Source: Bacteroides ovatus (GTDB lineage Bacteria > Bacteroidota > Bacteroidia > Bacteroidales > Bacteroidaceae). Taken from it: a stretch of 64,000 nt of DNA. The position numbers and the translations under genes are program-made. The notes below the pieces were generated by a model. That model was not told the DNA's origin. It worked only from the letters and a program-made list of their open reading frames with translations, and did no database searches. Every line of letters starts with the position of its first letter. Position 1 is the first letter of the stretch. The DNA lies in contig NZ_CP012938.1 in NCBI RefSeq assembly GCF_001314995.1, forward strand, positions 6,200,001 through 6,264,000, written 5' to 3'. Shown piece after piece: positions 39,820 to 59,675 of this stretch.

Positions 39820-40002
39820 AGTTTTTACTTTTAATTATTGATTAATACTACTCTAAGAATCATCCAATTTACTATCAATTGAATGTACGAATTTAGTTTG
39901 TGCCTGACAAAAATTTGCAGACACAACCACTCTCATTGGTGGATTCTCCGTGTGTTCCATCACGTCCTCCTTTTTTATTGGGGTTATACTTCGGTTTATG
40001 TT
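39820..40002. other. Intergenic gap upstream of the 787-residue gene
   Basis: About 180 AT-rich bases separate it from the fimbrial operon. I see no gene and no clear -7 element. Confidence 0.4.
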
Positions 40003-40033
40003 CGTTGCGGACGGAAATGTTCCGCCCGCAACG
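40003..40033 (-). terminator. Hairpin after the last fimbrillin gene
   Basis: CGTTGCGGACGGAA (40003-40016) pairs with TTCCGCCCGCAACG (40020-40033), allowing one G-T pair. It begins right after the stop of the fimbrillin at 40036; no clear T-run follows on the minus strand. Confidence 0.6.
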
Positions 40034-40035
40034 GC

Positions 40036-41745
40036 TTACTGCTTCCTCAAGGTAGGCAATGCTCCTTTAAGTTCGTAACGCCACTTTGAACCAGCGTTCT
40101 GCAAAGCGGTGTTCATGGCATCAACGGCTTTCTGCCAGGTAACGACAGAGCCGTCCACCTTCGTGGCTTCGGTGCTTTTCTTATTGTAGCCGATACCTTG
40201 TTCATGATTGTTCTTCCAATAGCAGGCGGTCATCACGTTGGCGTAGTTATTTCCCAAAAAGCCGCCGATATGTAGATAGCCAGTGCTACTACCCGTACTG
40301 GTTACGTTGCCCGTGGCATAGCAGGCAAGGAGGCTGCTTCCTGCGTTCATTCCCACCAGACCGCCGCCAGCGATATTCTTATTGGGGGCCATTTCTATGA
40401 TCACGTTGCCTGTGGCATAGCAAGCGGTCAGGGTGGCACTCGAATTCGTCTGACCTGCCACGCCGCCGACATCGACCGTTCCCTTCACTGTGGCAGAGGA
40501 GCTGCATCCGGTGATGGAACCGCCTATTTGAACACCCACCACACCGCCGACATACACCGTGCCGCTGACGCTGCCCGACACCGAGCAGTTTTCAATGGTG
40601 CCCCAGCCAGATCCTACCACGCCGCCAATACTGCCGCCATATATTTGATGGCTTGTTATCTGTACGCCCTCCATCACCACGTTCTTCACCGTACCAGCTC
40701 TATTGAGCCAGCCGAACAGACCCGCATATTCGTCATTTGTCGTAAAGGTCAGCCCCGTGATGGTATGGCCGCCACCGTCGAAGGTGCCTTTGTATGAGTT
40801 GTCGTAGTCTGTGCCTATCGGCGTCCAGTCTTTGCCTGTGAGGTCAATGTCTGTGTCGAGGGTAATGTTAATGTCGCTCTTACCTCCGTTCACTAATTCG
40901 GCTATATTCATCAGACCATCGGCGGAGGTCACGGTGTAGCTGCCGTTGCTCTCTATGGTATAGCCCAGGTCTTTTGCCGCAGCGAGGGAGACGGTGTAGG
41001 TATATTCACCGCCCGCCTGCCAGTCGGTAGCATTCTTCATCTTATAAACGAAGGTCTTGCCGTTAGTGAAGGTGCAGGTAATGAAGGCCGTGCCAGCTGC
41101 CACACTTTGCGGGGCTACGATGGCGGTGTAGGTGTTGCTGCCCTTGTCATACGGGACGATTATATCCGGGTTGTCGCCTTCGGTGGAGAGACCCGTCAAC
41201 TGCACGGATGCCAGCCCCTCGGTGTAGTCCGTCAGAACGATGGTCACCCGCGCCGTGCGGTGGGTGAAGCGGAGCGTGGGGCTACCGTAGGTCACCGTCT
41301 GTCCGTTGGCTACGATGAGGTCGCTGCCCTCAAAGTCTTTTTGGGTACTTTGGTTGGCTTTTACCTTTACCGCAGGCGGAGTTGTCTCGCCAGCGGTGTA
41401 GGGCCACCACGCCGTGACGGTGATGTCGTTGTGGTTGGTCCAGTAGTACGGGTCGGTGGAGGTCAGCGTGGCGCTGGTGGGGTCGGCGGTGGAGGGCGTC
41501 ACGTTGTACGTCTTCACCGTGCCGTCCATCAGGACTGCCACGCTCTGCACACCCGTCCAATTGCCGTCCGCTGGGGCACGGGTGCCTACGGTGGCTGTCG
41601 CGACGGGATTCAGCCCCGTGGCGGTGAAGACGATGGGGGTGCCTTCCGCCCCTTCCGGTAGGAAGCCCGCTTCGTCCTGCGTGCAGGCGGCAAAACCGAG
41701 CAGCAGGGCGATGGCTGCGGATATATGGATAGTTGTTCGTTTCAT
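40036..41745 (-). CDS. Fimbrillin-family lipoprotein with GLUG repeats (A)
   Basis: This 569-residue lipoprotein has a lipobox at LGFAAC (Cys near residue 21). An N-terminal fimbrillin-like (Mfa-like) domain covers about residues 30-265. GLUG-type repeats follow (about 330-500), seen as repeated GGVVG and GCSSSATVKG-like units. A short conserved C-terminal segment ends in GALPTLRKQ. It is likely a surface-exposed tip or accessory fimbrial subunit. Its last 300 residues are nearly identical to those of the next gene (41768), so the two arose by tandem duplication or exchange recently. It is the last gene of the operon and high in GC compared with the flanking DNA. Confidence 0.87.
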   Translation of the reverse strand: MKRTTIHISAAIALLLGFAACTQDEAGFLPEGAEGTPIVFTATGLNPVATATVGTRAPADGNWTGVQSVAVLMDGTVKTYNVTPSTADPTSATLTSTDPYYWTNHNDITVTAWWPYTAGETTPPAVKVKANQSTQKDFEGSDLIVANGQTVTYGSPTLRFTHRTARVTIVLTDYTEGLASVQLTGLSTEGDNPDIIVPYDKGSNTYTAIVAPQSVAAGTAFITCTFTNGKTFVYKMKNATDWQAGGEYTYTVSLAAAKDLGYTIESNGSYTVTSADGLMNIAELVNGGKSDINITLDTDIDLTGKDWTPIGTDYDNSYKGTFDGGGHTITGLTFTTNDEYAGLFGWLNRAGTVKNVVMEGVQITSHQIYGGSIGGVVGSGWGTIENCSVSGSVSGTVYVGGVVGVQIGGSITGCSSSATVKGTVDVGGVAGQTNSSATLTACYATGNVIIEMAPNKNIAGGGLVGMNAGSSLLACYATGNVTSTGSSTGYLHIGGFLGNNYANVMTACYWKNNHEQGIGYNKKSTEATKVDGSVVTWQKAVDAMNTALQNAGSKWRYELKGALPTLRKQ

Positions 41746-41767
41746 GATGCGTGTTGTTTAGGGGTAG

Positions 41768-43570
41768 CTATTGTTTCTTTAGCGTGGGCAATGCTCCTTT
41801 AAGTTCGTAACGCCACTTTGAGCCTGCGTTCTGCAAGGCGGTGTTCATGGCATCAACGGCTTTCTGCCAGGTAACGACAGAGCCGTCCACCTTCGTGGCT
41901 CCGGTGCTTCTCTTATTGTGGCCGATACCTTGTTCATGATTGTTCTTCCAATAGCAGGCGGTCAAGGTAATGTAGTTATCTCCCAAAAAGCCGCCGATAT
42001 GTACATAGCCAGTGCTACTACCCGTACTGGTTACGTTGCCCGTGGCATAGCAGGAAAGGAGGCTTATTCCGTCGTTGAATCCTACCAGACCGCCGCCAGA
42101 GATATTCTCTGTGCGGTCTATTTCTATGATCACGTTGCCTGTGGCATAGCAAGCGGTCAAGGTGGCACCAAAAATCGTCTGACCTGCCACGCCGCCGACA
42201 TGGACCATTCCCTTCACTGTGGCAGAGGAACTGCATCCGGTGATGGAACGGTCCCTTTGAACACCCACCACACCGCCGACGCTCACCGTGCCGCTAATGC
42301 TGCCCGACACCGAGCAGTTTTCAATGGTGCCCCAGCTATATCCTGCCACGCCGCCGGCATAACCCAACCTGTGATTGCATGTTATCTGTATGCCCTCCAT
42401 CACCACATTCTTCACCGTAGCGGCGCCATTATTGAAATTACCGAGATAGCCGAACAGACCCGCATATTTGTCATTTGTCGTAACGGTCAGCCCCGTGATG
42501 GTATGGCCGCCACCGTCGAAGGTGCCGGTGTATGAGTTGTCGTAGTCTGTGCCTATCGGCGTCCAGTCTTTGCCGGTGAGGTCAATGTCGGCGGTGAGGG
42601 AAATGTTAATGTCGGTCTTACCTCCGTTCACTAATTCGGCTACATTCATCAGTCCGTTGGCGTTATAGACCGTGTAGGTCTTGGTGTTGCTGTCGTAGAT
42701 GTAGCCCAAATCCTCGGCTGCGCCGCTCTCGCCGCCGCCGTCAGCCCAGTTGCCGATGGTGCAGCCCTCTAACGTCAGGCCGGTGGTGTTCACCTTAACG
42801 GTATATTTATAGCGGCTGCCCGCTTCTAATACAACGTTGTTCTGCGGACGGAAGTAGAAGGTGCCGCCGCCGAGTTTCACCTTGACGAACGGCTTGCCTG
42901 CCACAACGGTCTGCGGGGCGGTCAGTGCCTCGTAGGTGTTGCCGCTTGCGTTGTAAGTCTTGATGGCGGTCGGGTTGCCGTTATCGGCTGACAGGCTCAC
43001 GAGGCTCACCGTGGCACCGGCGACGCTCGTGAATCCCGTGCCGGGCTTCAGTTCGATTGTCACGCGTGCCGTGCGGTGGGTAAATTCAAGAGTCGGGTTG
43101 TTAAATTCCACCTTCCGGTTCTCAGCAGAGATGAAGTCGCTGTTCTGGAAGTCAGCCAATTTGCTTTGGTCTTCTGCCACCTTCACGGCAGGCATCTGTG
43201 TGATGTCGGCATTGTTGAAGGGCCACCATGCCGATACGGTAATCGGGTCGCGGCTGGTCCAGTAGTACGGGTCGTTCTCGCGTGAAAGCGTGGCACTCTT
43301 GAAATCGGTAGAAGCCGTTACGGTGTATTCCTTTACCGCATCGCCCATCTTGAGTGCCACGGAAGTGACGCCCTGCCAGTCGCCGTCCACAGCGGCACGG
43401 GTGGAAGGGGCTGCCAGCGGCGTTGCTTCTACGGACAATCCGGTGGCACGGATGACGACGGGGTATTCACCTTCGGGCAGACGGTTATCGCCAGCAAGTT
43501 CGTCCTGCGTGCAGGCGGCGAGGGCGAACAGCAGTGCGGTGGCTGCGGGGATAAATAATCTATGTCTCAT
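41768..43570 (-). CDS. Fimbrillin-family lipoprotein with GLUG repeats (B)
   Basis: This 600-residue lipoprotein has a lipobox at FALAAC (Cys near residue 20), an N-terminal fimbrillin-like domain (about residues 35-280) and GLUG repeats (about 355-530) with the same C-terminal segment as gene A, ending in GALPTLKKQ. The N-terminal domains of A and B differ, which means the duplication kept a common adhesive or stalk part and a variable first domain. It lies 22 bases upstream of A and 34 bases after the smaller fimbrillin at 43605. Probably part of the surface fimbria. Confidence 0.87.
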   Translation of the reverse strand: MRHRLFIPAATALLFALAACTQDELAGDNRLPEGEYPVVIRATGLSVEATPLAAPSTRAAVDGDWQGVTSVALKMGDAVKEYTVTASTDFKSATLSRENDPYYWTSRDPITVSAWWPFNNADITQMPAVKVAEDQSKLADFQNSDFISAENRKVEFNNPTLEFTHRTARVTIELKPGTGFTSVAGATVSLVSLSADNGNPTAIKTYNASGNTYEALTAPQTVVAGKPFVKVKLGGGTFYFRPQNNVVLEAGSRYKYTVKVNTTGLTLEGCTIGNWADGGGESGAAEDLGYIYDSNTKTYTVYNANGLMNVAELVNGGKTDINISLTADIDLTGKDWTPIGTDYDNSYTGTFDGGGHTITGLTVTTNDKYAGLFGYLGNFNNGAATVKNVVMEGIQITCNHRLGYAGGVAGYSWGTIENCSVSGSISGTVSVGGVVGVQRDRSITGCSSSATVKGMVHVGGVAGQTIFGATLTACYATGNVIIEIDRTENISGGGLVGFNDGISLLSCYATGNVTSTGSSTGYVHIGGFLGDNYITLTACYWKNNHEQGIGHNKRSTGATKVDGSVVTWQKAVDAMNTALQNAGSKWRYELKGALPTLKKQ

Positions 43571-43604
43571 AATTCTTCATTCTAATCGATTAATTATTAA
43601 CATC

Positions 43605-44492
43605 CTACAGGTCAGCACCCACATCTCCACCGTCTATATCGTTCCACTTTGCAATGGTGGCTTCGCTGACTTCAAGGACTTTGTTGCGTACCTTGACGGT
43701 ATAGGTATAGTTGTTGCCCGCCAGCAGTGCGCCATCGGGCATGGTGAGTGTGGCATGATATTCCTGACCTTTGTAATTCACAACCAACGGCAGGGATGCA
43801 ACTGTCTGCGGGAAGAGGATGATCGATGACGTGAGATTGCCGTCTGCCAGATTCATGGTCAGTTCTCCAGTCTGTAGTCCGTTGTCTGCGGTGGCAATAC
43901 CGTCGGCCGTGTTGAACGTACCGGTGAGTAACAATCCGTCCAGCGTGTAACGTTCAGGCTTGACCACGCTGAAATTCACGCCGTCGCCCGCCTCGAAGGT
44001 AAGGGTTATCTGGCTCATGCGGTGGTGGAAAGAGTTGTCTTCACCGCCTTTGGCGGTTTTGTCGGTGAAGCTTACTACCGGGTTGTTTTTGTCTCCCGTG
44101 GCTCCTGAAGCAAAGAGGAAGTCGATGGCAGGCTGGTTTTGCTGCGCCGTGGCATCGGTCGTGGCTGTGAGGATGCCTCCCGCCGCGTTGTACGGATAGT
44201 AGGCGCGGAAAGTATGGGTCTTTGCATCTTCGATATAGATAACCTTTCCTTCTGCCTCAAATTTCCCGTTTTTCAGGATGAAAGGCACGTTGCCGTACTG
44301 GGAATCGTTGCCGATGTCGGTGATGCCGATACGGTCGCCGCCAGTCCAGGTGGTTCCGCTGGCGCGGGTGGCGGGGGCGATGTTGGCGGTAAACTGGGCG
44401 GCCACGGGGTCACCGTTCAGGTTCTCGTTGTCGTTGTTGCAGGCTACCAGTGCGAGGGCGAGCGCTGCAAGTGTAAAAAATCTTGTCTTCAT
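43605..44492 (-). CDS. Fimbrillin-family protein
   Basis: This 295-residue lipoprotein has a lipobox at LALVAC (Cys near residue 18) and a single fimbrillin (Mfa_like_1-type) domain. It resembles the major subunit of Mfa1/FimA-type fimbriae, which are exported as lipoproteins, trimmed by an Arg-gingipain-like protease in other genera and then polymerised by donor-strand exchange. The late stretch GNNYTYTVKVRNKVLEVSEATIAKW fits the C-terminal strand region. It is the best candidate for the shaft subunit in this operon. Confidence 0.88.
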   Translation of the reverse strand: MKTRFFTLAALALALVACNNDNENLNGDPVAAQFTANIAPATRASGTTWTGGDRIGITDIGNDSQYGNVPFILKNGKFEAEGKVIYIEDAKTHTFRAYYPYNAAGGILTATTDATAQQNQPAIDFLFASGATGDKNNPVVSFTDKTAKGGEDNSFHHRMSQITLTFEAGDGVNFSVVKPERYTLDGLLLTGTFNTADGIATADNGLQTGELTMNLADGNLTSSIILFPQTVASLPLVVNYKGQEYHATLTMPDGALLAGNNYTYTVKVRNKVLEVSEATIAKWNDIDGGDVGADL

Positions 44493-44512
44493 TATATCTA
44501 TAATTTTATTAT

Positions 44513-45400
44513 TTACAAATCAGCATTTACATCATCACCTTTCACTTCTTCCCAGCCGTTGATTTCGGCTCCGTCCACTTCCATGCCTTCGGGAGTCTCA
44601 ACCAGCGTTCCGCCGAGGGTCAGCGATTTGCCCTTTCTGGTGTTGAACTCCTTGAGAGCTTCTGTGAGGTCGCTTTTCAACGTGGTGGGGCTCGGGTTGC
44701 CGTCCGCATAGCGGATTTCAGCCGTCAGCAGTTGTTCCGTACCGGTCACACCCAGCAACCGCACCGTGGCTTTCCACTTGCCGGCATCGTCACCTTCGGT
44801 TATCTTGGTGAAGGGCAGCACGACGTTTGAAGCGGCTCCGTAGGTATCGGTAGCGAAATCGAGTGTTCTGGCTGCACCCGTCAGATGGGCAACAATCTCC
44901 GTGATGCGTCCGGCGGCATCACCCGTCGGTTTGACGACAAGCGTCAGTTCGCGTACCTGCTGCTTCATTGCGGCGGTCAGCGGATAATCCTTGTCTTTCT
45001 CGATGCTCACCTGTTTCGTATAGGTGAAGAACCATCCCGGGGCATTGTTCACAAAGGCATCCGTGCCTGTCCGGTTTCCCGTGGCTGCGGCAATGGTGGC
45101 GGTGGTACCATTTACCGTGATTCCTTCAGCTGGGTTCCACACCGCAAGGGCGTAGCAGCCTGGAGCAAACAGATGGTCGGGAGCATGGGTGGTGGAAGTC
45201 TCCGTACCCGTATAGTCGCCCATGGTGACCGTCCATGTGGCAGGTATGTTGATACCCTCACCGCAGGCCGACCAGTCGGCTGTCACCGCAATTTTCCCAT
45301 AGTCGGGATGCGGCGTGTCATAAAGCGCGTCCTTCACGCAGGAAGAGAGCAGCACGGCGGCTGCCATTCCTACCATATTTATATATTGTCTTGCTTTCAT
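44513..45400 (-). CDS. FimB/Mfa2-family anchor or DUF5119-like subunit
   Basis: This 295-residue lipoprotein has a lipobox at AVLLSSC (Cys near residue 21), followed by the KDALYDTPHPDYGKI sequence and a beta-rich fold. It matches the FimB/Mfa2 (FimB-like, DUF5119-type) group, which anchors the fimbria to the outer membrane and limits its length. It is positioned between the DUF3575 protein and the fimbrillins, as in related operons. The stop is 20 bases before the next gene. Confidence 0.83.
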   Translation of the reverse strand: MKARQYINMVGMAAAVLLSSCVKDALYDTPHPDYGKIAVTADWSACGEGINIPATWTVTMGDYTGTETSTTHAPDHLFAPGCYALAVWNPAEGITVNGTTATIAAATGNRTGTDAFVNNAPGWFFTYTKQVSIEKDKDYPLTAAMKQQVRELTLVVKPTGDAAGRITEIVAHLTGAARTLDFATDTYGAASNVVLPFTKITEGDDAGKWKATVRLLGVTGTEQLLTAEIRYADGNPSPTTLKSDLTEALKEFNTRKGKSLTLGGTLVETPEGMEVDGAEINGWEEVKGDDVNADL

Positions 45401-45416
45401 ACTCTATTCCTCCGTA

Positions 45417-46517
45417 TTAGAATAACTTCCATACCAATGTCACACCGGCGTTGATGGGGCCACACCAATTTTTTGTCTCGTTGCCACAGCGCACGCGCAC
45501 ACCATCGATGACTTCATATTTTTCGAAATCGGCATTCAGGTAGCCCAAGCCGAGGTTGAAATCAAGAGTCAGTGCCTTGTTCAGCCGTAGCTGATAGCCG
45601 GTGGTGATGCCGCCACCCATCAGGTCGCCTTGCTTGCCTGTTTCGGAGATCTTGTAGTTGAACTGTCCGGCCTTGAACATCGCACCCAAATACCAGGCTT
45701 TCTTCTCACCCATGTAATAACGTATTTCCGGAGCCACTTCCCAAAGTGCATAGCGGCGGTCCTTGTCGCTCCACGTCCAAGAAGTCCATGAGCCGTTTAC
45801 GGCAATGCCACATGACGGACAGATGCGCCATTCAAGTCCTAAATCGGGTGTCAGGGTAGCCCAGCGCAACAGGTTGGCACGCAGGGAGAGATGATAATCA
45901 TTTGTGATTTTGGTTCCCGACGGCGTGTCGGCAAGTGTGTTTTGTTGAGCGGTTTTCTCGGCTTCTGCCTTTTCAGCGGCAAGTCGGGCTTCTTCCGCCT
46001 TGCGCTGCTCTTCGGCAAGCCGTTCCTGCTCGGCACGCTTCTCGGTTGCCAGTCGTTCGGCTTCCGCCTTGCGTCGTGCTTCCGCTTCCGCATCCATCGC
46101 GGCTGTTTCCTTTGCGGGAACCGTTAGGCGTACGATTACAAAATCACCCCCTGTCGCATGATTGTGGGTAATGAAGTTTTCTTCCTTGATTTTCGCGCGT
46201 GTAATCAGTTCTGATTTTACTCGATTGGCACGGATCTTCGCCGTTGCAAGGTTCTCGGCTTCACCACCCAGCGAATTGCAGTAGCCGTCAACCAGTAGCG
46301 GCAACTTGCCGTCAAAAATTGTTGCTTTACTGTTTTCGATACATTCCAACAGGCGGGCAAGTTCAGTGTCATTGCCATTCCAAGGAACGTAGAACATGTC
46401 CTTCTGCGGAACGAAGCGGAAGGTGTAGGTCGTGTCTGTTTTCTGCTGCGCAATGACTGGAAAAGTTACCGTCATCAGCCACAGAAACAAGGTAAGAAAA
46501 GTGATTTTTCTGCTCAT
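45417..46517 (-). CDS. DUF3575 outer-membrane protein with OmpA-like N-terminal region
   Basis: This 366-residue protein has a cleavable signal peptide (ends near TFPVIAQ), an OmpA-like region (residues about 20-130) including the peptidoglycan-binding-style NLATAKIRANRVKSELI, a charged Ala/Glu/Lys-rich coiled-coil linker (about 135-195) and a C-terminal DUF3575 beta-barrel ending in the aromatic VTLVWKLF. The likely role is an outer-membrane platform for the fimbria. An ATG at 46529 is possible, but 46517 (MSRKITFL) gives a normal signal peptide and a 25-base leader after the promoter at 46549. It is the first gene of the fimbrial operon. Confidence 0.88.
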   Translation of the reverse strand: MSRKITFLTLFLWLMTVTFPVIAQQKTDTTYTFRFVPQKDMFYVPWNGNDTELARLLECIENSKATIFDGKLPLLVDGYCNSLGGEAENLATAKIRANRVKSELITRAKIKEENFITHNHATGGDFVIVRLTVPAKETAAMDAEAEARRKAEAERLATEKRAEQERLAEEQRKAEEARLAAEKAEAEKTAQQNTLADTPSGTKITNDYHLSLRANLLRWATLTPDLGLEWRICPSCGIAVNGSWTSWTWSDKDRRYALWEVAPEIRYYMGEKKAWYLGAMFKAGQFNYKISETGKQGDLMGGGITTGYQLRLNKALTLDFNLGLGYLNADFEKYEVIDGVRVRCGNETKNWCGPINAGVTLVWKLF

Positions 46518-49610: not shown

Positions 49611-51155
49611 TTATTGCTCAGTTTGAGGGTTAACAATAATGCGCCAATAGCCACCATGATCTGCTCCTTCACGAGACAAAATTCCCATAGAACGAAGCTT
49701 TGAAATATGTTTTTCTACGGCTCGGGAGCTTATTCCTATTTTATAGGCCATTGCTTCTGCAGACATTGATGGGTCGGAAATGACGAAATCAATAATCTTT
49801 TGTGTGGTTTTCCCAATGCTTTTAGATTTGTTTTTCGAATCTCCGAACTTTTTCTCCGAACCTTTTGGGATTATCTCCGAACCTTTCTCCGAACTTTCTT
49901 GCGTATCACCAAAGGTTTCCACCGAACTTTCTTCGTTTTCAGGGTACTTTTCGAGGGTACTGTTTACCCTGTTAGCCACTTCCTCAACAGGTATTCTTCC
50001 ATTGTCACCCCAGTTCAGATTATAGAATGTGGTGTAGAAAGAAGTCGCTTCCGTTTGATATTGTGGTTCTTTGCCTTGTAGGAAATTGGGTAGCTTCTCT
50101 GTAAGCTCTCGCATTTTGCGTAAGCCGGAACCACGTTTCTCCATATAGTCCAATTGTGTGAACATATCTGCAATGACAGGGTTGCGGCGCATGGACGGCA
50201 CTTTGTATATGTCACGGTCTTGAATCTGTGTGCCGTCAAGCATGGCACCAGGTGATACTAGTTCTACTCGGTCATCGTAAATGTCAATATGTACTTCACC
50301 GCCCATCATGGTGTAATCTCGATGGATAAGGTGGTTTACCAATCCTTCGAAGATGGCGCGGTCGGAATAGTCGGGGAGGTTAAGGCGATAGTTTGGCATC
50401 TTCACCCAGCCACTCATGGTATAGTTTTTGATGAAATCCATACCATATTTTAAGAGCAGCACAAGGTTAGCCCGATGTTCCACGGAACTGATGGCATCAT
50501 CCTTATATAGTCCAGTCCAACGGGTGCAGAAAATACGCGATTGAAATACTGTGCAATTGTCCACAAACAGCAATCCTGCATTGGTCAGTTTGCCGTCAGG
50601 AGTTACCAGTCCGAATGATTCCAAATACTTGTCATTCCATTCCTGATGGGTTTGTTCACGGAAAGTATTGGCAAGGATGATGAAAGAATGTTTGCTGGCA
50701 TCCACTTCGGTAGGCAGTGAATCCCAAGTCATGTGCGTGCCTTTTAATACCAACGAAAGTAATTGTTGGGAGTTGCATTCTACACTTTCATTGCCAACTC
50801 GTACATATGCGGTACGTGTCCCATCCTGATAGTAATAATAAGGTGTAAGCGTTCCTGTCTTTACTTTCACTTCAAGCAGGGTATGCTCTTCGTGTTCTAT
50901 CGGAATAAGTTGAACTTCCGGAACAGGGTCAAGTCTTGCCTTTATCATTTCACTGATAAAATCAGCATCGGCTTGTGGATTCTCCAACCCTACAATTACG
51001 CCGTCATCATTCACTCCATAGAACAAACTGCCACCATCCGTATTAGCGAAAGCCGACACGGATTTAAGCCACGACTTCACTTTCTTACGCTCCAACATTT
51101 CCTTGAAATCGTAAGCCGAGCATTCTGTTATCAATGTATTGTTATGTATCTGCAT
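49611..51155 (-). CDS. AlbA_2 (Schlafen-like) ATP-binding regulator
   Basis: This 514-residue protein begins with an AlbA_2/Schlafen-type domain (residues about 8-130, with SVSAFANTDGGSLFYGVND), then a GHKL-type ATPase-like C-terminal domain (HATPase_c_4, with EKRGSGLRKMREL) and a winged helix near the end (SAEAMAYKIGISSRAVEKHI). The linker between them contains repeated GSEK/FGDS units encoded by TCCGAA-containing repeats, which may vary in number. Proteins of this type act as regulators or as part of phage-defence islands. The start at 51155 follows the -7 element at 51200-51207. An earlier ATG (51200) would overlap the promoter. Confidence 0.82.
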   Translation of the reverse strand: MQIHNNTLITECSAYDFKEMLERKKVKSWLKSVSAFANTDGGSLFYGVNDDGVIVGLENPQADADFISEMIKARLDPVPEVQLIPIEHEEHTLLEVKVKTGTLTPYYYYQDGTRTAYVRVGNESVECNSQQLLSLVLKGTHMTWDSLPTEVDASKHSFIILANTFREQTHQEWNDKYLESFGLVTPDGKLTNAGLLFVDNCTVFQSRIFCTRWTGLYKDDAISSVEHRANLVLLLKYGMDFIKNYTMSGWVKMPNYRLNLPDYSDRAIFEGLVNHLIHRDYTMMGGEVHIDIYDDRVELVSPGAMLDGTQIQDRDIYKVPSMRRNPVIADMFTQLDYMEKRGSGLRKMRELTEKLPNFLQGKEPQYQTEATSFYTTFYNLNWGDNGRIPVEEVANRVNSTLEKYPENEESSVETFGDTQESSEKGSEIIPKGSEKKFGDSKNKSKSIGKTTQKIIDFVISDPSMSAEAMAYKIGISSRAVEKHISKLRSMGILSREGADHGGYWRIIVNPQTEQ

Positions 51156-51199
51156 AGTTTCTTTATTGTTGTTCGGGTATAATATCCCAATATCATACA

Positions 51200-51207
51200 C
51201 AAAGGTA
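51200..51207 (-). promoter_or_regulatory. Bacteroides -7 element of the AlbA_2 gene
   Basis: Minus-strand TACCTTTG fits TAnnTTTG, 45 bases from the ATG at 51155. Confidence 0.55.
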
Positions 51208-51220
51208 AGGATAAAACCGG

Positions 51221-51267
51221 ATATTTTGTTAAAATCAGCCCATTGATTTGACTATTATGTGTTTGTA
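51221..51267 (+). repeat. 47-bp imperfect direct repeat, left copy
   Basis: This matches 59372-59418 at 42 of 47 positions in the same orientation, 8151 bases away. The two copies bracket the S1-ATPase/helicase-PIN operon. Confidence 0.75.
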
Positions 51268-51291
51268 TTCTATTTAAAATGATAAAATACC

Positions 51292-51299
51292 TATTTTTG
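51292..51299 (+). promoter_or_regulatory. Bacteroides -7 element of the S1-ATPase/helicase-PIN operon
   Basis: TATTTTTG fits TAnnTTTG. Transcription would begin near 51306, leaving a long leader of about 157 bases that might carry a regulatory structure. Confidence 0.5.
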
Positions 51300-51462
51300 T
51301 AATTAAGAAATTCTCTTTGCATGAAACTATAATGTTACATGTGTTAGATTCTAATATGTGAATGATAGATAATGTCTTATATCTGATTTAATTTTTAATT
51401 GAAATATTTGAGATCAGAGTGACTAACAAAATTGTAAAGTTATACTAAAAGATAAATTGCTT

Positions 51463-54400
51463 ATGACAACATATAATAATCCATCAGTTGGTGATATTAT
51501 TCGCGTAAAAATTACCAGTATAAAACCAGATCTCGGAGCATTTGCAAAAATGCCCAATGGAGTTGACGGTTTGATAAGACTTCATGATATATCTTGGTCT
51601 AATCAGTCTGTGACTCTTTCTTCATTATCGGAAGGTGATGTTCTTGATGTAAAAGTTATCAAAGAATTACCAGATGGAAAGTTGAATCTAAGCCGAAAAA
51701 ATCTTCTACCCAATCCAAGAACAGTTGAAAAAGGTACCATATACAAGGTTATTATAAAATCTGTTGAGAGTTTCGGTCTTATTGTAAACTTAGGAGACAG
51801 CACGGCACTTGTTCATGTAAGTGAACTCCCAACAATAGAATACAAAGAAGGTGAAGAAATTACTTGTGTTGTAATTGACAACAATTACGACCCAGAGAAG
51901 CATCGAAACAAAATTTCGATGAGTGTGTTGGCTTTACATGATTATTTTGCAAAAGTACATAGTGAGAATGAACGGGTAAAATGTTTATTTAAGGGTATCA
52001 TTAAAAATGAAAATTCCACATCTGCTCTTATTGAAGCAGATGGATTGATAAAGGTAATTGTACCTTTAAAACGTTTTGTTGAACCTTATAAAACCAGACT
52101 ATTGAACAATGAAATAGAGACTGATGAAGAACTTGAATTTGTTTTCATTAAATATAATGAAAAGTTAAAAGATGTTGTCTTGGATATGCGTCCAATCGAG
52201 GCCGAGGAAAAGAAAGCTAGAGTTGATTGGTTACGTTCTCAACTAAATAAGGGCGATATCATTGATGCTATTGTTAAGAATATAAACAATAAATTTGCTA
52301 CTATAGACATTGGTAATACCGGAATCTTAGGCAGTATATATAGGGATGAACTGTCACCAAATAAAGTTATTCGTGCTAGTGATGAAGTTTTTCCAGGAGA
52401 ACATGTCCGTGTTGCATATATGGGAGAAGACAACGGCCAGCTGATTTTTAGTAGAAAGTTTTTTGTTGAAGATAAATACGAAGAGAGCCTTTACGAACTT
52501 AGTCTTACAGATTTACTGGCTACTATGGGATTAACAACCAATCGTTTTATTGGCAAAGTTATAGAGATTAATTCCAAGTATTTTTTCACAAATTTAATGT
52601 CTACAGGAGATGTTAAAGAAGAAAACAATGGCAAATTACTAGTAGATCCAATTAATGGGAAGTGTCTCATTGCCATCGTTGATAACCGATTGCGTAATTT
52701 TTTTGTTTCTGGTAATTATTATGAGATAGAGATTGACATGCCACGCAAAGAATACCGCATGGAACAAGGTTCTCCTTATATGTTTTGTGTATCATCAAAT
52801 AAAATTAAAGAAGCAGAAAATCCATATAAAGAGTCTGTTTCCCTTTCTTTTAAGCAACATACAAGTCCAAACACTAATACAAGTGTAGCTAACTTGCTTG
52901 AAGAAGTAGGTCAGAACCTCTATACTAGTAAAAAGAGAATGTTTTTTGAACTTCTTCAAAATGCCGATGATGCTGCCCCAGAGAATGGCGTTAAAGTAAA
53001 GTTACAACTTAGCGATAATTATTTTGTTGTAACACACGATGGATTTGCATTTAATAAACATGACTTTGAATCAATTACATCTGCTGCAAAAAGCACAAAG
53101 AGTGCAAGCAGTAAGAAAACAGGCTATAAAGGTATTGGGTTCAAGTCAGTATTCACAAATTCTGAGTCTGTATTAATTAAAAGTGCTGGCTACAATTTTT
53201 CTTTCGATAAAAATTTACCAATCTATAATGATTTCAAAGCCTTTTACTACCATGTTAACGATATTGAGAATGATGTGGAAAAACAGAAAGAATTTCTTCA
53301 CAAATATCTAAAATTCTTTAGGGAATTCAAAGGTGTAAAGGATATTCCTTGGCAGTTATTACCGATATGGTATGAATCATTAAAAATTGATCCATATGAT
53401 TCCATTTTCAATCAAAAAGAAAATGTTGCTATTGCATTAAAAATGGATGAAGAAACACTTTCTGAATATCATGAGGCGATTAAAGAAGTGTTTTCTGAAC
53501 CACGATTTATGTTATTTCTCAGAAACACTAATCGAGTGCAATTGATAGATAAGGATAAATGTCTTACTATTCAAAAGAAAATAGATAGAAAGAATAACAT
53601 AGTTTCGCTTGTAAACTCTTTCAATGAAGATCGTTTATTTGAAGATTTTTGTATTTATTCGTCAGATAATCTTTTAGTGAATGACGATGAATTCAAAAAG
53701 GCAGGCATTCAAATCAGAAGAAAAGAAAGAACTAATAATAGGGGTGAAAAAGAAAACTACTTTATTAAACTTGATCAAGATGGTAATGAATTAACAGAAG
53801 TTGCAGGTATTCCAGACCGTATTGCATCGGCTAAAGAAACAACTATCTCATTTGCTATCAAGCTTGACGAAGATGGACTTGTTACGCCAATCGGTGAAGA
53901 TGATCTCTCATTATATGCTTATCTTCCTATGAATGAGCACAGATTCAAATTCCCATTTTATTTGAATGCTGATTTTATTCCCAAGTCTGATAGAGAAGGA
54001 ATTCAAAGCGACAATCCATGGAATTTCTTCTTGTTCTATATGATTGGAAAGCAAATTGTAAGTATGGTTTCAAGCTATGCTTCTGAACTCAATGTAAATT
54101 ATCTTAATTTACTTCCAACAAAAGAACTCACCTATTTTAGTCAGGATACAGCAACACTAGTCGATTCGTTTAATCGTGGATATAAGGATGCTTTAACAAA
54201 TAAAGCATTTATACTTAATGATAATAATGATATCGTAGGGCCAGATAATATTATATTTGATGCTTCTGGACTATCTTCTGCAATTGGTGCATCTGATTTC
54301 TATAAGCTAATAGGTACAACCAAACATTTACCTCATGAATCTATTGATTCAAGTTCATTGTCAAAAGAAATATTTGGAATAGAAAAGATTACTACAGAAA

Positions 54401-57051
54401 CTGTTATCACAATTCTATTAAATAATATTGATACCCTTAAAAAATGGATTATTGATTCTTGTGATGATAAGTTACGTACATCTTTCTATGAATGGTTGGC
54501 AAAAGAAGAAAAAGCGCATTCTCTAATTCCACTTGTTCCCACGTTTATGTTTGGGAAAGAGTGGAAAACAACAAATGAAGTTAAGTTAGAAGATAAACTC
54601 TTGTTTTCAACAGAGAAGATTTCAACCATAAAGTCAGTATTATCAAAACTTGGTTTTAAATGTTCTAATCATTCTGTTGAAGAACACCCATTATCATTGT
54701 TTATTGTTAGCCAAGATGAAAAAGCAATTTTTGAAAAAATAGAGGAAGAATCCTTAGATTCTCTCACATTTAATGAGAGATTGCATTTATTTGTGAATAT
54801 TGCAAAATTTAAAAATATTGGGGTTGAAACATTAAAAAAATGGAAAATCTTTAAAAATCAGAATGGTAAATATAGTCCATTATCTTCAATGTTTGCGTAT
54901 AATTCCAATTGTCCGGTTTGGCTATATGATTATATGTTAAAGCAAGAAGAAAATAACAGCTTAATTACTAGATACCTTGTTGTATCAACAGATATTTATT
55001 CAAGCATTATTGAACCATATATTGATGACTTGATAAGTATTACAGATATTTCAGATATTCATAAAACATTCTTGTCATATTGGAGACCCGGATTTACGAT
55101 AACATTGTTTTCAAAAAGCAATATACCTACAATAAGTTTACTTCGCATTGTAGAGCAATCCGATACTAATACTCAGGTAGCATATGCAAAGAGCATAAAA
55201 GCTATGCCACTTTTAAGTACGTTGGAATATGACAAAAAATCTTTCGAATATAGATGGATGAAGATGGCATTATCCAACGATACGGCTGTTTCTCATGCAC
55301 GCTCAATAATAACAATTAATGGTAAGAGTTTGTCAGAATATAATCTTAAAGATGATTTTTCAATAAACATAGGTGTAAAACTCTATACATTCTCGCTTTC
55401 GAAAATACTACCAGCATATTCATCATCTTCTATACTTAGCAATGTAAGTTCAAAGTTTTCAAGTATAGATGGATTCGAAAAGATATTTGCTCGAAGGGAA
55501 GTTAACCTTACTGATGTTCGAAATCAGTTATATAAAGAACTAACTGCATCAACTCAACTAATCACTGCAGAACAATTCTGTTTTCTTATTGTGTATAGAA
55601 AGTTTTGTGGTTACAATTATTTCGATAATATGCTAAAATCATGCATTCGTGCTAATGATCAGAATCTTTTCATTAAAATACTTGACAAGAGTATGGCACT
55701 AGATATTGCAGATATATTAAGTCCTGTTATTACAAATGGAGGAGTTCAATATCCTTTTGATAAATTAGTTGGAACATATTTCGATAGTAATGAATTCACT
55801 TTACCAATAGAACAAGTGCCTTCGTTTATTGAGAACTGGGCTAATACGTTTGAAAAAAAACAATTCTTGATTCAACTTGGGTTGCATGACAAAGAAAGTA
55901 AAGAGATACTGCGGAGAAAATCATTTAAAGAGAATAAATTAGAGAATATATGGAATCTTAATGATGCTAACATAATAAGATCTTTCTTTAATTGGGTAGC
56001 TAACTCATTCCAACTTCCGATAGAATCAGAAAGCCAAGTAAATATATTGTCAAATCTATACAAAACTTTACGTCTAACTGGTTCATATTATGAAGATGAT
56101 TTCTGTAAAGCAGCAGAATGGTCAAATCAATTGTATTTAGATTGGAAACAGAATTCAAGAATGTCAATATACATAATTGAGGGAGAACTTCCGTATAGAG
56201 GCATTTATAATAATACTTACTTATTTAAAGGTTATGCGGGTGAATATACATATTTTGCAAACACTAGACATATCTATATATCAGCGAATAGAGAACCAGC
56301 ATCTTCTCTAGCGGATATATACTCCAATACTACATTATTAAAATGTCCTTTTTCTAAAGAGGATTGGAATATGATATTTCTCGTATCAGCGGATATTGTT
56401 CAAGAAAAGGATAAACGCATAGCAGAACTTGAGCGAATGCTTGAAGAAACAAAAAGTAAAAAAAGAATAGACGGTGATTATTATGAGGATGAAGAAAGTT
56501 ACGGCAATGTTTCCGACCGGGATAATCTTGACAAAGAATCTCGTATAGAGATGAATTTGGAAGCACGTAATGCTGCAAAAGATTACCTTGATTCATTAGA
56601 GGATTATGATTGCTCAGGATGGGATCCTAATTTGGGGAATGGTTTGGTTAAAGGTATTATTAAATTTAAAGGGAAATTAATAACCGTAGTCGTAACCAGT
56701 TCTATAGGACGAAAGCTATACCTTCATCCTAGATTATTCTCAGAATTAATGATAGATCCAGATAATTTGCTACTCAATTATGGCTATGATAGAAGGATAC
56801 ATCGTATAAGTTTTAATGATACTTTTAAAGACAATAAGGATGTCAACCTTATATTTGACACGGATATCATAACTCCTAAAGAATTTGCATATCTAGCTAA
56901 TAGATATATGTACTCAAAAAAGACATGCTTCGTTATAGAAAATATAACATATTCTATTTCAGACCAAATAAATGGTTTTGGACTTGACGAAAAGATGTCA
57001 GTTTCTGATGTTTATACAAATATTGATACAGATGAATTGTTTGACTTTTAG
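51463..57051 (+). CDS. S1-repeat, sacsin-like GHKL ATPase, DUF3883-like giant protein
   Basis: This 1862-residue protein is the first gene of a two-gene operon. Residues about 8-345 contain at least four S1-type RNA-binding repeats (for example VGDIIRVKITSIKPDLGAF and GTIYKVIIKSVESFGLIV). A sacsin-like GHKL ATPase follows: N-box FFELLQNADDAAP (residue about 495), G1 HDGFAF (about 525) and the G2-like GYKGIGFKSVF (about 553). A long poorly recognised middle region leads to a short coiled coil (about 1645-1670) and a C-terminal domain like NO VEIN/DUF3883 (about 1690-1862). Sacsin-like ATPases fused to nucleic-acid-binding domains occur in bacterial defence islands. The ATG at 51463 matches the first S1 repeat; a frame start at 51457 is nearly the same. 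Confidence 0.88.
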   Translation: MTTYNNPSVGDIIRVKITSIKPDLGAFAKMPNGVDGLIRLHDISWSNQSVTLSSLSEGDVLDVKVIKELPDGKLNLSRKNLLPNPRTVEKGTIYKVIIKSVESFGLIVNLGDSTALVHVSELPTIEYKEGEEITCVVIDNNYDPEKHRNKISMSVLALHDYFAKVHSENERVKCLFKGIIKNENSTSALIEADGLIKVIVPLKRFVEPYKTRLLNNEIETDEELEFVFIKYNEKLKDVVLDMRPIEAEEKKARVDWLRSQLNKGDIIDAIVKNINNKFATIDIGNTGILGSIYRDELSPNKVIRASDEVFPGEHVRVAYMGEDNGQLIFSRKFFVEDKYEESLYELSLTDLLATMGLTTNRFIGKVIEINSKYFFTNLMSTGDVKEENNGKLLVDPINGKCLIAIVDNRLRNFFVSGNYYEIEIDMPRKEYRMEQGSPYMFCVSSNKIKEAENPYKESVSLSFKQHTSPNTNTSVANLLEEVGQNLYTSKKRMFFELLQNADDAAPENGVKVKLQLSDNYFVVTHDGFAFNKHDFESITSAAKSTKSASSKKTGYKGIGFKSVFTNSESVLIKSAGYNFSFDKNLPIYNDFKAFYYHVNDIENDVEKQKEFLHKYLKFFREFKGVKDIPWQLLPIWYESLKIDPYDSIFNQKENVAIALKMDEETLSEYHEAIKEVFSEPRFMLFLRNTNRVQLIDKDKCLTIQKKIDRKNNIVSLVNSFNEDRLFEDFCIYSSDNLLVNDDEFKKAGIQIRRKERTNNRGEKENYFIKLDQDGNELTEVAGIPDRIASAKETTISFAIKLDEDGLVTPIGEDDLSLYAYLPMNEHRFKFPFYLNADFIPKSDREGIQSDNPWNFFLFYMIGKQIVSMVSSYASELNVNYLNLLPTKELTYFSQDTATLVDSFNRGYKDALTNKAFILNDNNDIVGPDNIIFDASGLSSAIGASDFYKLIGTTKHLPHESIDSSSLSKEIFGIEKITTETVITILLNNIDTLKKWIIDSCDDKLRTSFYEWLAKEEKAHSLIPLVPTFMFGKEWKTTNEVKLEDKLLFSTEKISTIKSVLSKLGFKCSNHSVEEHPLSLFIVSQDEKAIFEKIEEESLDSLTFNERLHLFVNIAKFKNIGVETLKKWKIFKNQNGKYSPLSSMFAYNSNCPVWLYDYMLKQEENNSLITRYLVVSTDIYSSIIEPYIDDLISITDISDIHKTFLSYWRPGFTITLFSKSNIPTISLLRIVEQSDTNTQVAYAKSIKAMPLLSTLEYDKKSFEYRWMKMALSNDTAVSHARSIITINGKSLSEYNLKDDFSINIGVKLYTFSLSKILPAYSSSSILSNVSSKFSSIDGFEKIFARREVNLTDVRNQLYKELTASTQLITAEQFCFLIVYRKFCGYNYFDNMLKSCIRANDQNLFIKILDKSMALDIADILSPVITNGGVQYPFDKLVGTYFDSNEFTLPIEQVPSFIENWANTFEKKQFLIQLGLHDKESKEILRRKSFKENKLENIWNLNDANIIRSFFNWVANSFQLPIESESQVNILSNLYKTLRLTGSYYEDDFCKAAEWSNQLYLDWKQNSRMSIYIIEGELPYRGIYNNTYLFKGYAGEYTYFANTRHIYISANREPASSLADIYSNTTLLKCPFSKEDWNMIFLVSADIVQEKDKRIAELERMLEETKSKKRIDGDYYEDEESYGNVSDRDNLDKESRIEMNLEARNAAKDYLDSLEDYDCSGWDPNLGNGLVKGIIKFKGKLITVVVTSSIGRKLYLHPRLFSELMIDPDNLLLNYGYDRRIHRISFNDTFKDNKDVNLIFDTDIITPKEFAYLANRYMYSKKTCFVIENITYSISDQINGFGLDEKMSVSDVYTNIDTDELFDF

Positions 57052-57063
57052 AATAAAAATATA

Positions 57064-59355
57064 ATGTATTATACAAGAGAGCAACATAAGAGATTTCTTG
57101 ATAAAGAACTTGTAGCAATAAGTGAAGAATATCTAAAGAAACTCAATTCTAAAGCAATTGCATTATTAACAGATAATGAAGTGTATGTTACACAGTTTGT
57201 AAAGCTAGATTTACAAATGGCTGATTCCAATAATGCAGACCGTAACGTATTGGGATCTGGGCAACTTATACTTCGTTTTAAGAAGGATAAAGGAATTCCA
57301 CGCAAGAATGAATATTTTACTGCAGTCGTATTAGAAAAAGAAATGAGTATTCTAAGGTATTGGGGAGAAATCAGTTGGGGTAACTTGCGTCGTCACCAAG
57401 TCGAATTTTCGGAAGTACATTGTGTCTGGCAGGGTAAAACGGATGACAATGGTTTCCTACTGTGTGGTTTTACTGGATTGTCAATAGATATGGCTAAATT
57501 CCTAGAAAACAAAGAAGGATGTGTAATTGTCCTTGGCCCTCAAGAGCCACCAATGGATTATTATCAGAACCTTATTGATATCGTTAACAACAACGACACA
57601 AATATGGTAGCCAAGGACATTTTGGATTTTGATAAGAAGTTTATTGTATGGAATCCTATTCATATTAATTCAAATAAAGAACAAGTTGAAGAGATAGTCA
57701 AGACGTTAGAATCCACTTCTCAACTGATATTTCAGGGCCCTCCAGGTACTGGGAAAACTTATCTTATGGCTGAACTTGTTGCACATTTGCTGAGCCAAAA
57801 TAGTAGTGTGCTTGTTACTGCCATGACTAACAGAGCACTGATAGAACTTGCAGAAAAGGACAGCCTAAAAAAATACCTCTCCGATAAGCGGGTAATGAAA
57901 ACTAATGTATCTTCTGATGAACTTATTACTTGCAAAAATCTTTGTCCTATTGATAGTAAAAAAATAACATGTATTTCTGGCAATCTTACACTCTCAACAT
58001 TCTATAATACAAGCGGTTGGGCTAAACAAAGTTATTATGAACAACCGTTTGACTATGTAATTATGGATGAAGCAAGTCAGGCTTTGTTTGGAATGATAGC
58101 TGCATGTAAAAATCTTGGAAGAAAGGTTATATGGATTGGTGATCAAAACCAGATGCAGCCAATTGTATTGTTAAGCGAAGAAACGCTTATGAGGAATGAC
58201 TTCGCTATGCTTGCAAATGGTTTTGCAACACTCTGTGAGAACTTTAACTACAAGTCGTTTATTTTAACAGAAACACATCGTTTATTGAAAAAATCTGCGG
58301 ATTTGACAAGTATTTTCTATCATACACCTATTAAATCGGTAGCTGACTTTAAGTATGAGTTAGCAAATACTACTATACACTATATTCCTAAGGAAGGTGG
58401 TACAATTCTTATTCCTAAGGAGATGCCTATCGGTGAGAAAGTAGATAAAGGCAGCTGTGATTTCACTATTAGAATTGTTAATGATTTATTATCATCTTAT
58501 CCTAAATTGAATATTGCAGTATTAACAAAATTTCGTGCTGCAGTTAGAATGTTACAGAATAGTTTTATAAGTAAATATGGTAGCAAAAACAATGTTCTCA
58601 TCGACACAGTTGAACGAGTTCAAGGTATGACTTGCGATGTTTGTATTTATTATATTCCTAACACAATGATTGGAATGTCTCTTGATAGAGCACTGTTTAA
58701 TGTTGCAACAAGTCGTGCAAAACAACTAACAATAATTGTTGCGGATAAATCAATACTCAATACATCATGCCATAGAGATGTTCGTTCGTACTTAATCAAA
58801 ATAACTTCTGGTATTATACCAGAAATAATAGATGAGTATTCAAATAAACTTAAAGATAGTATAATTGAAGGTAACGGGATAAGTTTGCATCTAAAAGGGA
58901 AAATAGACCTCTCAAAATTTGAGACTTCAAAACAAAAATCTGTTAAGTCAACCACCCAAAAGAATATATATATCATCGATACTAATGTGTTTGTTAATTG
59001 TCCAGATATTATTTCTAAGATTGATGAACATTATCAAGTTGTCATGTCTGCAAAAGTTATAGACGAGTTGGACAAACTTAAAATTAAGCTTGATGCGGCA
59101 AACAAAAAAAATGTAGAAACGGCTTTGCGATTGATCAATAAAGCAATGGATAAGCCGAATGTCTCAATGGAACTTTCTGATCCTGATTTATTGCCAAATG
59201 ATTTTAATAAAAAATCTCCAGATAATAACATATTAACGGTGGCACTTAAATTTAAAAATGAAAATCCTATTCTTTTAACTTCCGATAATGGCTTACAAGT
59301 AAAAGCAAAAGGACTAAGAATTGCAACTATTACACTTAAAGATTTCTTAAATTAG
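57064..59355 (+). CDS. Upf1-like SF1 helicase fused to a PIN nuclease domain
   Basis: This 763-residue protein is a superfamily 1 helicase of the Upf1/SMUBP2-like branch: Walker A GPPGTGKT (near residue 225), DEASQ (near 330), GDQNQMQP (near 358), and the later RVQGMTCDV and ATSRAK motifs. A PIN domain follows at residues about 634-763, with four acidic residues in order: IDTNVFVN, VIDELDKLK, SPDNNIL and LTSDNG. A PIN RNase tied to an Upf1-like helicase resembles the eukaryotic Upf1-SMG6 pair. It begins 12 bases after the giant ATPase, so the two almost certainly form one functional system. RNA is the likely substrate because of the S1 repeats and PIN domain. Confidence 0.9.
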   Translation: MYYTREQHKRFLDKELVAISEEYLKKLNSKAIALLTDNEVYVTQFVKLDLQMADSNNADRNVLGSGQLILRFKKDKGIPRKNEYFTAVVLEKEMSILRYWGEISWGNLRRHQVEFSEVHCVWQGKTDDNGFLLCGFTGLSIDMAKFLENKEGCVIVLGPQEPPMDYYQNLIDIVNNNDTNMVAKDILDFDKKFIVWNPIHINSNKEQVEEIVKTLESTSQLIFQGPPGTGKTYLMAELVAHLLSQNSSVLVTAMTNRALIELAEKDSLKKYLSDKRVMKTNVSSDELITCKNLCPIDSKKITCISGNLTLSTFYNTSGWAKQSYYEQPFDYVIMDEASQALFGMIAACKNLGRKVIWIGDQNQMQPIVLLSEETLMRNDFAMLANGFATLCENFNYKSFILTETHRLLKKSADLTSIFYHTPIKSVADFKYELANTTIHYIPKEGGTILIPKEMPIGEKVDKGSCDFTIRIVNDLLSSYPKLNIAVLTKFRAAVRMLQNSFISKYGSKNNVLIDTVERVQGMTCDVCIYYIPNTMIGMSLDRALFNVATSRAKQLTIIVADKSILNTSCHRDVRSYLIKITSGIIPEIIDEYSNKLKDSIIEGNGISLHLKGKIDLSKFETSKQKSVKSTTQKNIYIIDTNVFVNCPDIISKIDEHYQVVMSAKVIDELDKLKIKLDAANKKNVETALRLINKAMDKPNVSMELSDPDLLPNDFNKKSPDNNILTVALKFKNENPILLTSDNGLQVKAKGLRIATITLKDFLN

Positions 59356-59371
59356 TATGTATTCGAATTGC

Positions 59372-59418
59372 ATATTTTGTTAAAATTACCCTATTGATTT
59401 GATTATTATGTGTTTATA
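59372..59418 (+). repeat. 47-bp imperfect direct repeat, right copy
   Basis: This differs from 51221-51267 at five positions. Weak similarity continues for about 40 bases beyond, including a -7 element in both (59444-59451 and 51292-51299). Confidence 0.75.
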
Positions 59419-59675
59419 TCACGATATTTATCAAATAAATCTGTACTTTTGCAGTAAAGAGCTGTGGTTGCTTATGGATGCTTATTTTCGGGTTTGCACT
59501 ATATTTGCAACACGTTCACGCAAGTTGCTCATACAGAGATGCTGTTGATTTTGAGGAAGTGAAATAAAATTGCTGAATGACTATTATTCTATATCGGAAA
59601 GTTCAAAAAAAAGTCCGTACGTCTTTTTTTTAGGGCGATTTGTCGAATAAATTTTCTGGTAATGAAAATGTAGCT

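Follow-up and report, generated by a model that had tools for sequence, protein, structure and literature searches.

Analysis of a 64,000-nucleotide (nt) stretch of the Bacteroides ovatus genome (G000:C1:6200001-6264000, from the single 6.47 Mb contig of genome G000), hereafter the window, identified two adjacent plus-strand genes, A (51463..57051) and B (57064..59355), that seem to belong to a branch, not described so far, of the ATPases of Tiamat-type phage defence. The pair is related to Tiamat by its ATPase and fails the other Tiamat features tested. We put at roughly 0.55 the probability that the two genes together make up a self-contained and horizontally mobile system against phages (or other mobile elements), in which A would sense an RNA-linked cue and B would cut RNA. 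The two genes probably have an immune role, and RNA is a plausible target of B.

Gene A encodes a protein of 1862 amino acids (aa) that comprises four S1 repeats (residues 5-82, 86-160, 165-250 and 254-325; 51475..52437, +), a sacsin/Hsp90-type GHKL ATPase, a long helical region and a C-terminal domain. Three of the S1 repeats were detected by profile search and four by profile–profile comparison, and they resemble those of ribosomal S1. Among 108 A proteins with 1800 aa or more, 106 keep both ATPase boxes, which are located within 52780..54204 (+). Gene B starts 12 nt downstream of A, and encodes a 763-aa protein in which a superfamily 1 (SF1) helicase of the Upf1/IGHMBP2 type is joined to a PIN nuclease. 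The Walker A motif GPPGTGKT (residues 225-232; 57736..57759, +) was present in all 116 B proteins longer than 730 aa. The GKIDLSKFE linker and PIN module (residues 613-763) occupy 58900..59352 (+), with the PIN acids at D639 (58978-58980), E668 (59065-59067), D720 (59221-59223) and D741 (59284-59286). The structures closest to the model of B were RNA helicases; its IGHMBP2/Upf1 matches include 8rd3, in which Upf1 is bound to Nmd4, a PIN protein. With the NCBIfam profile for the PIN-helicase PhoH2, B scored 23.8 bits (cut-off 680), and in the PIN part only. These analyses confirmed much of a preliminary description of this DNA: the S1 repeats and sacsin-like ATPase of A were upheld by profile searches, as was a Upf1-type helicase–PIN protein 12 bases downstream with its acidic residues in place. 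Its DUF3883-like C-terminus was not recovered, since PF13020 (NOV_C/DUF3883) gave no profile match in A and the catalytic motif is absent from the C-terminal domain (56533..56991, +; no IEVK motif), which is possibly a degenerate PD-(D/E)XK fold.

The pair lies within an insert of 8151 base pairs (bp) (51221..59371, +) consisting of a repeat, a leader and genes A and B. The direct repeats already seen in the preliminary description are 48-nt copies at 51221..51268 (+) and 59372..59419 (+), of which only one is present where the site is empty in other members of the genus. To the right, the remainder of the conserved intergenic target site (59420..59570, +) is contiguous with the repeat in empty genomes. 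To the left and outside the insert, a resident minus-strand gene (49611..51200, −) encoding SLFN_AlbA_2, HATPase_c_4 and wHTH domains is also present at empty sites. In relatives that lack the pair, the 5′ part of the AlbA-type gene runs without interruption into a single repeat copy and approximately 150 nt of conserved intergenic sequence. The G+C content of A and B is 0.30-0.33, compared with 0.35-0.56 in the remaining window. Within the latter, a run of minus-strand genes spanned by 40001-46000 (G+C 0.55-0.56 vs 0.30-0.47 elsewhere) looks like a separate foreign block.

Among 25 genus genomes with both sides of the site placed on one contig, the site was empty at exactly 0 bp in 13 and occupied in 12. 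The A–B inserts measured 8151 bp in G000 and 8152 bp in G012; the others comprised six of 4992-5473 bp and single inserts of 1959, 1125, 587 and 438 bp. Lying 5′ of the AlbA-type gene, this intergenic site (window 51139-51268 and 59372-59570) is an insertion hotspot of the genus, with varied cargo and flanking repeats of varying length. The 5-kb inserts encode a protein of about 1624 aa, which is broken in two of the six (L194 and L196). In the profiled copy of this commonest other cargo (L193:1779-6653), the 1624 aa include DEAD and UvrD helicase domains; its PADLOC matches to DpdF (2e-96) and GajB (1e-44) may reflect helicase similarity in general. The insert of 1959 bp encodes an HNH protein without a PADLOC match, and the 1125-bp insert encodes a PDC-S05 protein (2e-145), so that two of the three other profiled cargo kinds match PADLOC. 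No integrase was found among the profiled proteins of the site. In genome G043, an open reading frame (L209:1973-3175), which by eye we take to resemble an IS110-type transposase, lies between split parts of the target site. Repeats flank the pair also in G012 (91 nt, 79%) and G361 (67 nt, 91%), and are located farther out from it in G414 (73 nt, 84%); a comparable flanking repeat was absent at the other ten of the 14 loci tested.

Of 149 genus genomes, the same two carry both A and B, and the count is likewise two among the 89 with a completeness of 90% or more; on this distribution a housekeeping RNA gene was rejected. Across the order Bacteroidales, B was found in 10 of 393 genomes, at 11 places, and A in five; B adjoins A in all five, as it does in G012, in agreement with the co-occurrence expected of a two-gene system. 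In the phylum sample, B was found in 2 of 395 genomes, with a sacsin-type gene adjoining it in both. When the 13 places from these genus, order and phylum searches were examined together with L006-L009, a large ATPase-type gene was located directly upstream of B on the same strand at 16 of the 17 loci, the single exception being L158, in which B is a fragment; the ATPase was recognized by motif only in L157 and by its C-terminus only in L161. Among 120 listed clusters each of A and B, the longest contigs were exactly equal in length in 14 cases, compared with 0.65 expected from jittered lengths. The distances of A and B were correlated at 0.94 over 25 pairs (15 close and 10 distant; one of 14 linked pairs, with a short A, was omitted) and at 0.76 in the 15 close pairs. 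Two pairs depart from this correlation (A 61% and B 84% identical to the window proteins; A 42% and B 75%), so A and B do reassort to some extent. Genome G498 holds two different pairs, one near that of the window and one divergent (L161 and L152), and PIN type 1 occurs in the two of them. The same arrangement is retained by pairs that lack a PIN match (L154, L156, L157, L159 and L160). Two co-inherited accessory genes of defence-like make-up, as described beforehand, are supported.

A comparison of PIN and helicase identities in 124 proteins revealed marked discordance between the two parts. The helicases of L162 and L006 are 30% identical and their PIN domains 88%, and those of P0086 and L008 are 26% and 85% identical, respectively; conversely, P0039 or P0041 and P0108 have helicases that are 97-98% identical and PIN domains that are 69% identical. 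The switch point lies near residue 612, at the common GKIDLSKFE-type linker. On a helicase-core tree of 35 rows, PIN type 1 needs eight changes, at least seven of which are forced by well-supported branches, while the PIN-less helicases need two. As judged from these sequences, the linker–PIN module is repeatedly swapped between divergent helicases that are as little as 26-30% identical. Metagenomic chimeras are unlikely as the full cause, because the same PIN type was found on separate contigs (P0108 and P0110) and in assembled genomes (L008, L161 and L152). The N-terminus of the ATPase also varies: an OST-HTH module is present in L008 (25.8 bits, cut-off 23.8), whereas the cold-shock domain of L009 falls below threshold (23.4, cut-off 27), as does the IF2_N that accompanies S1 in P0213 (18.6, cut-off 25.3). 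No N-terminal module was recognized in L006, L007, L155, L159 and L162, and L160 gave sub-threshold hits only.

The GHKL part of A (residues 467-1016) matched the PADLOC profile PDLC03972 of TmtA at 325 bits (E 3e-97), and a second TmtA profile, PDLC03970, at E 1e-80; the sacsin/GHKL ATPase of A is homologous to TmtA. The preliminary description had named no system with exactly this set of parts. The TmtA matches correct this in that the ATPase is not without known relatives. The other tested features of Tiamat are lacking. Tiamat is a one-gene system, whereas A is adjoined by the helicase–PIN gene B; A covers only positions 18-485 of the 1302 in PDLC03972; and it carries S1 repeats and has no match to NOV_C/DUF3883, the domain seen at the C-terminus of the TmtA of L224 (66.6 bits). 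Some helicase-paired ATPases match TmtA over greater lengths: that of L154 matches PDLC03970 end to end (1147 bits), and those of L156 and L162 match PDLC03972 up to positions 1138 and 1160 of 1302 (1124 and 856 bits), each of the three being followed by a Upf1-like helicase. Of 213 phylum genomes, 7 gave matches to PDLC03972, the best being that of L224 (positions 3-1302, 1613 bits), which ends in NOV_C. This domain was recognized by Pfam in L224 and L225, by annotation and motif in L211-L213 and by motif in L226, and no B-type helicase gene was present in the stretches around these six relatives; L225 is accompanied by a DUF499/AlbA gene and a methylase gene. Conversely, the NOV_C motif was found in the last 230 residues of none of 12 distant helicase-paired partners. 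These observations are suggestive of a split of the Tiamat superfamily into helicase-free members with NOV_C and helicase-paired members without its motif; they are only suggestive and no census, because most paired loci were found through B. The S1 repeat is not confined to the helicase-paired branch, since P0245 joins S1 with NOV_C. In addition, a single 1587-aa chain in L228 (6918-11681) fuses SACS, the sacsin ATPase, with a Upf1-like helicase, and in L227 a sacsin-type gene adjoins a different sort of SF1 helicase. Tiamat itself is listed among the systems of unknown mechanism in the available part of PMC10482375.

The neighbouring genes were scanned with PADLOC (20 selected proteins from 10 loci, E 1e-10). 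Type III restriction–modification and PDC-S11 genes were detected beside L006; restriction–modification-like, PDC-S02 and pAgo genes beside L162; AbiP2 beside L007; and DRT beside L009. The association with known defence genes, which bears out the defence-like setting for some distant relatives, is true of some loci and not of all. Two PIN-less relatives of the pair from the same order lie in operons that are ARMADA-like: one amid SNF2, Eco57I-type methylase and DEAD genes (L159:101-18523), the other amid Eco57I-type methylase and DEAD/MZB genes (L160:2-20000).

Taken as a defence system, A would be the sensor and switch. Its S1 repeats may bind RNA, perhaps associated with the ribosome, and its Hsp90-like ATPase would close, driven by ATP, upon an infection cue, after which A would recruit or license B; the contact between A and B and the nature of the cue are what we infer. 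The Upf1-type motor of B would then travel along nucleic acid and the PIN domain would cut RNA, amounting to direct defence if on phage transcripts, or to abortive infection if on transcripts generally. Several points weigh against this reading. Sacsin-type ATPases occur in non-immune proteins too, and not every member of the wider helicase family carries PIN. No PADLOC match was obtained at the above threshold among the selected neighbours of L005, L008, L153, L154, L156 and L157, and three scanned upstream neighbours in the window gave weak matches only (best 44 bits). For the B model, the Z gaps among helicase families are modest, SARS-CoV-2 NSP13 equalling Upf1 at 21.8. Overall, the interpretation given beforehand is partly supported.

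The same two-gene defence could have DNA or replication intermediates as its target, with B unwinding or translocating on DNA and its PIN domain acting as a structure-specific or single-strand DNase (cf. the helicase–nuclease systems Druantia and ARMADA). We consider this rather unlikely, since the subfamily combines a PIN domain with four S1 repeats, an OST-HTH or cold-shock-like module stands at the same place in two relatives, and the B model is nearest to RNA helicases. Because PIN-less relatives sit with an Eco57I-type methylase gene in operons, the preference for RNA over DNA is no more than plausible; these operons caution that the older function may be interference driven by the helicase, perhaps acting on DNA, and that PIN may be an added warhead. 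An accessory module for RNA surveillance or stress, such as stalled-ribosome rescue or mRNA decay, with no specific phage role, would agree with the likeness to ribosomal S1 and with the use of a Upf1-type helicase and PIN as working parts of nonsense-mediated decay (available part of PMC5031192). It is improbable given a pair present as an insert of low G+C in 2 of 149 genus genomes, at a site whose cargo is partly defence-like, and with a repeatedly exchanged PIN module. Lower still in our estimation is a selfish pair resembling a toxin–antitoxin module, in which the PIN domain of B would be the toxin restrained by A: PIN is the fold of the VapC toxin (also in the available part of PMC13092281) and the pair is one insert, but A is 1862 aa long with conserved ATPase boxes, and the PIN-less pairs retain the same arrangement. 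Core RNA-metabolism genes of the genus, which S1 and helicase annotation alone would suggest, can be dismissed, as 147 of the 149 genus genomes gave no match at the limits used and the empty sites are base-exact.

If B targets RNA, the parts of the pair resemble those of eukaryotic mRNA surveillance. A tentative extension, which we regard as possible though doubtful, is a counterpart in working parts of nonsense-mediated decay that serves bacterial immunity: the S1-ATPase would inspect RNA under translation or bound to ribosomes for a sign that a phage has taken over, and license the Upf1-type motor to make the PIN cut. The PIN module would be an exchangeable warhead that recombination replaces as phage inhibitors exert pressure, and the Tiamat superfamily would be split into helicase-free enzymes that have a NOV_C nuclease domain of their own and helicase-paired members that have lost its motif. 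The pattern described here offers a testable idea, namely, that the ATPase is the switch and that cutting falls to a NOV_C domain of its own or to a helicase partner, whether PIN-bearing or PIN-less. Some of these systems would then have two genes, the second of which is overlooked when TmtA is called alone. Clean experimental material is offered by the exchange of one PIN module between highly dissimilar helicases and by the base-exact insertion site, which is empty in 13 genomes and occupied in 12.

Among known systems, Mokosh (MkoA and MkoC) shares a Upf1-like SF1 helicase with B, which matched the MkoA profile partially (112 bits, 8.9e-33); it is listed with a PLD-like nuclease domain in the available part of PMC10952713, while B has PIN_4 and a sacsin ATPase partner, with no PLD family among the matches listed (all five for A, the best 25 of 39 for B). 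CoCoNuT types II and III likewise have a UPF1-like helicase (CnuH) adjoining an NTPase, with OB-fold and RNase parts; their predicted targets are RNA and the translation system (available part of PMC11090510). As described there, they differ in their McrB-type GTPases, McrC homologues, coiled coils and HEPN from the sacsin GHKL ATPase, S1 and PIN of the pair; the insert, holding A and B only, has no McrB-type GTPase (CnuB) or McrC homologue, and McrB appeared among the matches listed for B alone, at P-loop level (14.5 bits, cut-off 637). The likeness to ARMADA concerns the PIN-less relatives, which occur with an Eco57I-type methylase and DEAD helicase, together with SNF2 in L159 and the MrfA Zn-binding domain in L160. 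The insert lacks the ARMADA set of BrxHII/SNF2 helicase, PglX-like methylase and YprA helicase; neither A nor B has a methylase or SNF2/MZB family among the matches listed; and the available main text of PMC12458937 contains none of the words sacsin, Hsp90 and Upf1. In the mRNA decay of eukaryotes, the Upf1–Smg6 and Upf1–Nmd4 partnerships also combine a Upf1-type motor with a PIN domain, but on separate proteins and with no sacsin ATPase, which makes the relation one of analogy and not orthology. In GHKL-Shedu (VcSduA), a GHKL ATPase is coupled with a nuclease, and defence is lost on mutating either part; the available part of PMC12137116 describes a single chain of GHKL and DUF4263, and helicase, S1 and PIN are not mentioned in it. 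The two-step device proposed for A and B mirrors GHKL-Shedu, as well as the PIN proteins that have been validated in phage defence, as far as the available part of PMC13092281 describes them.

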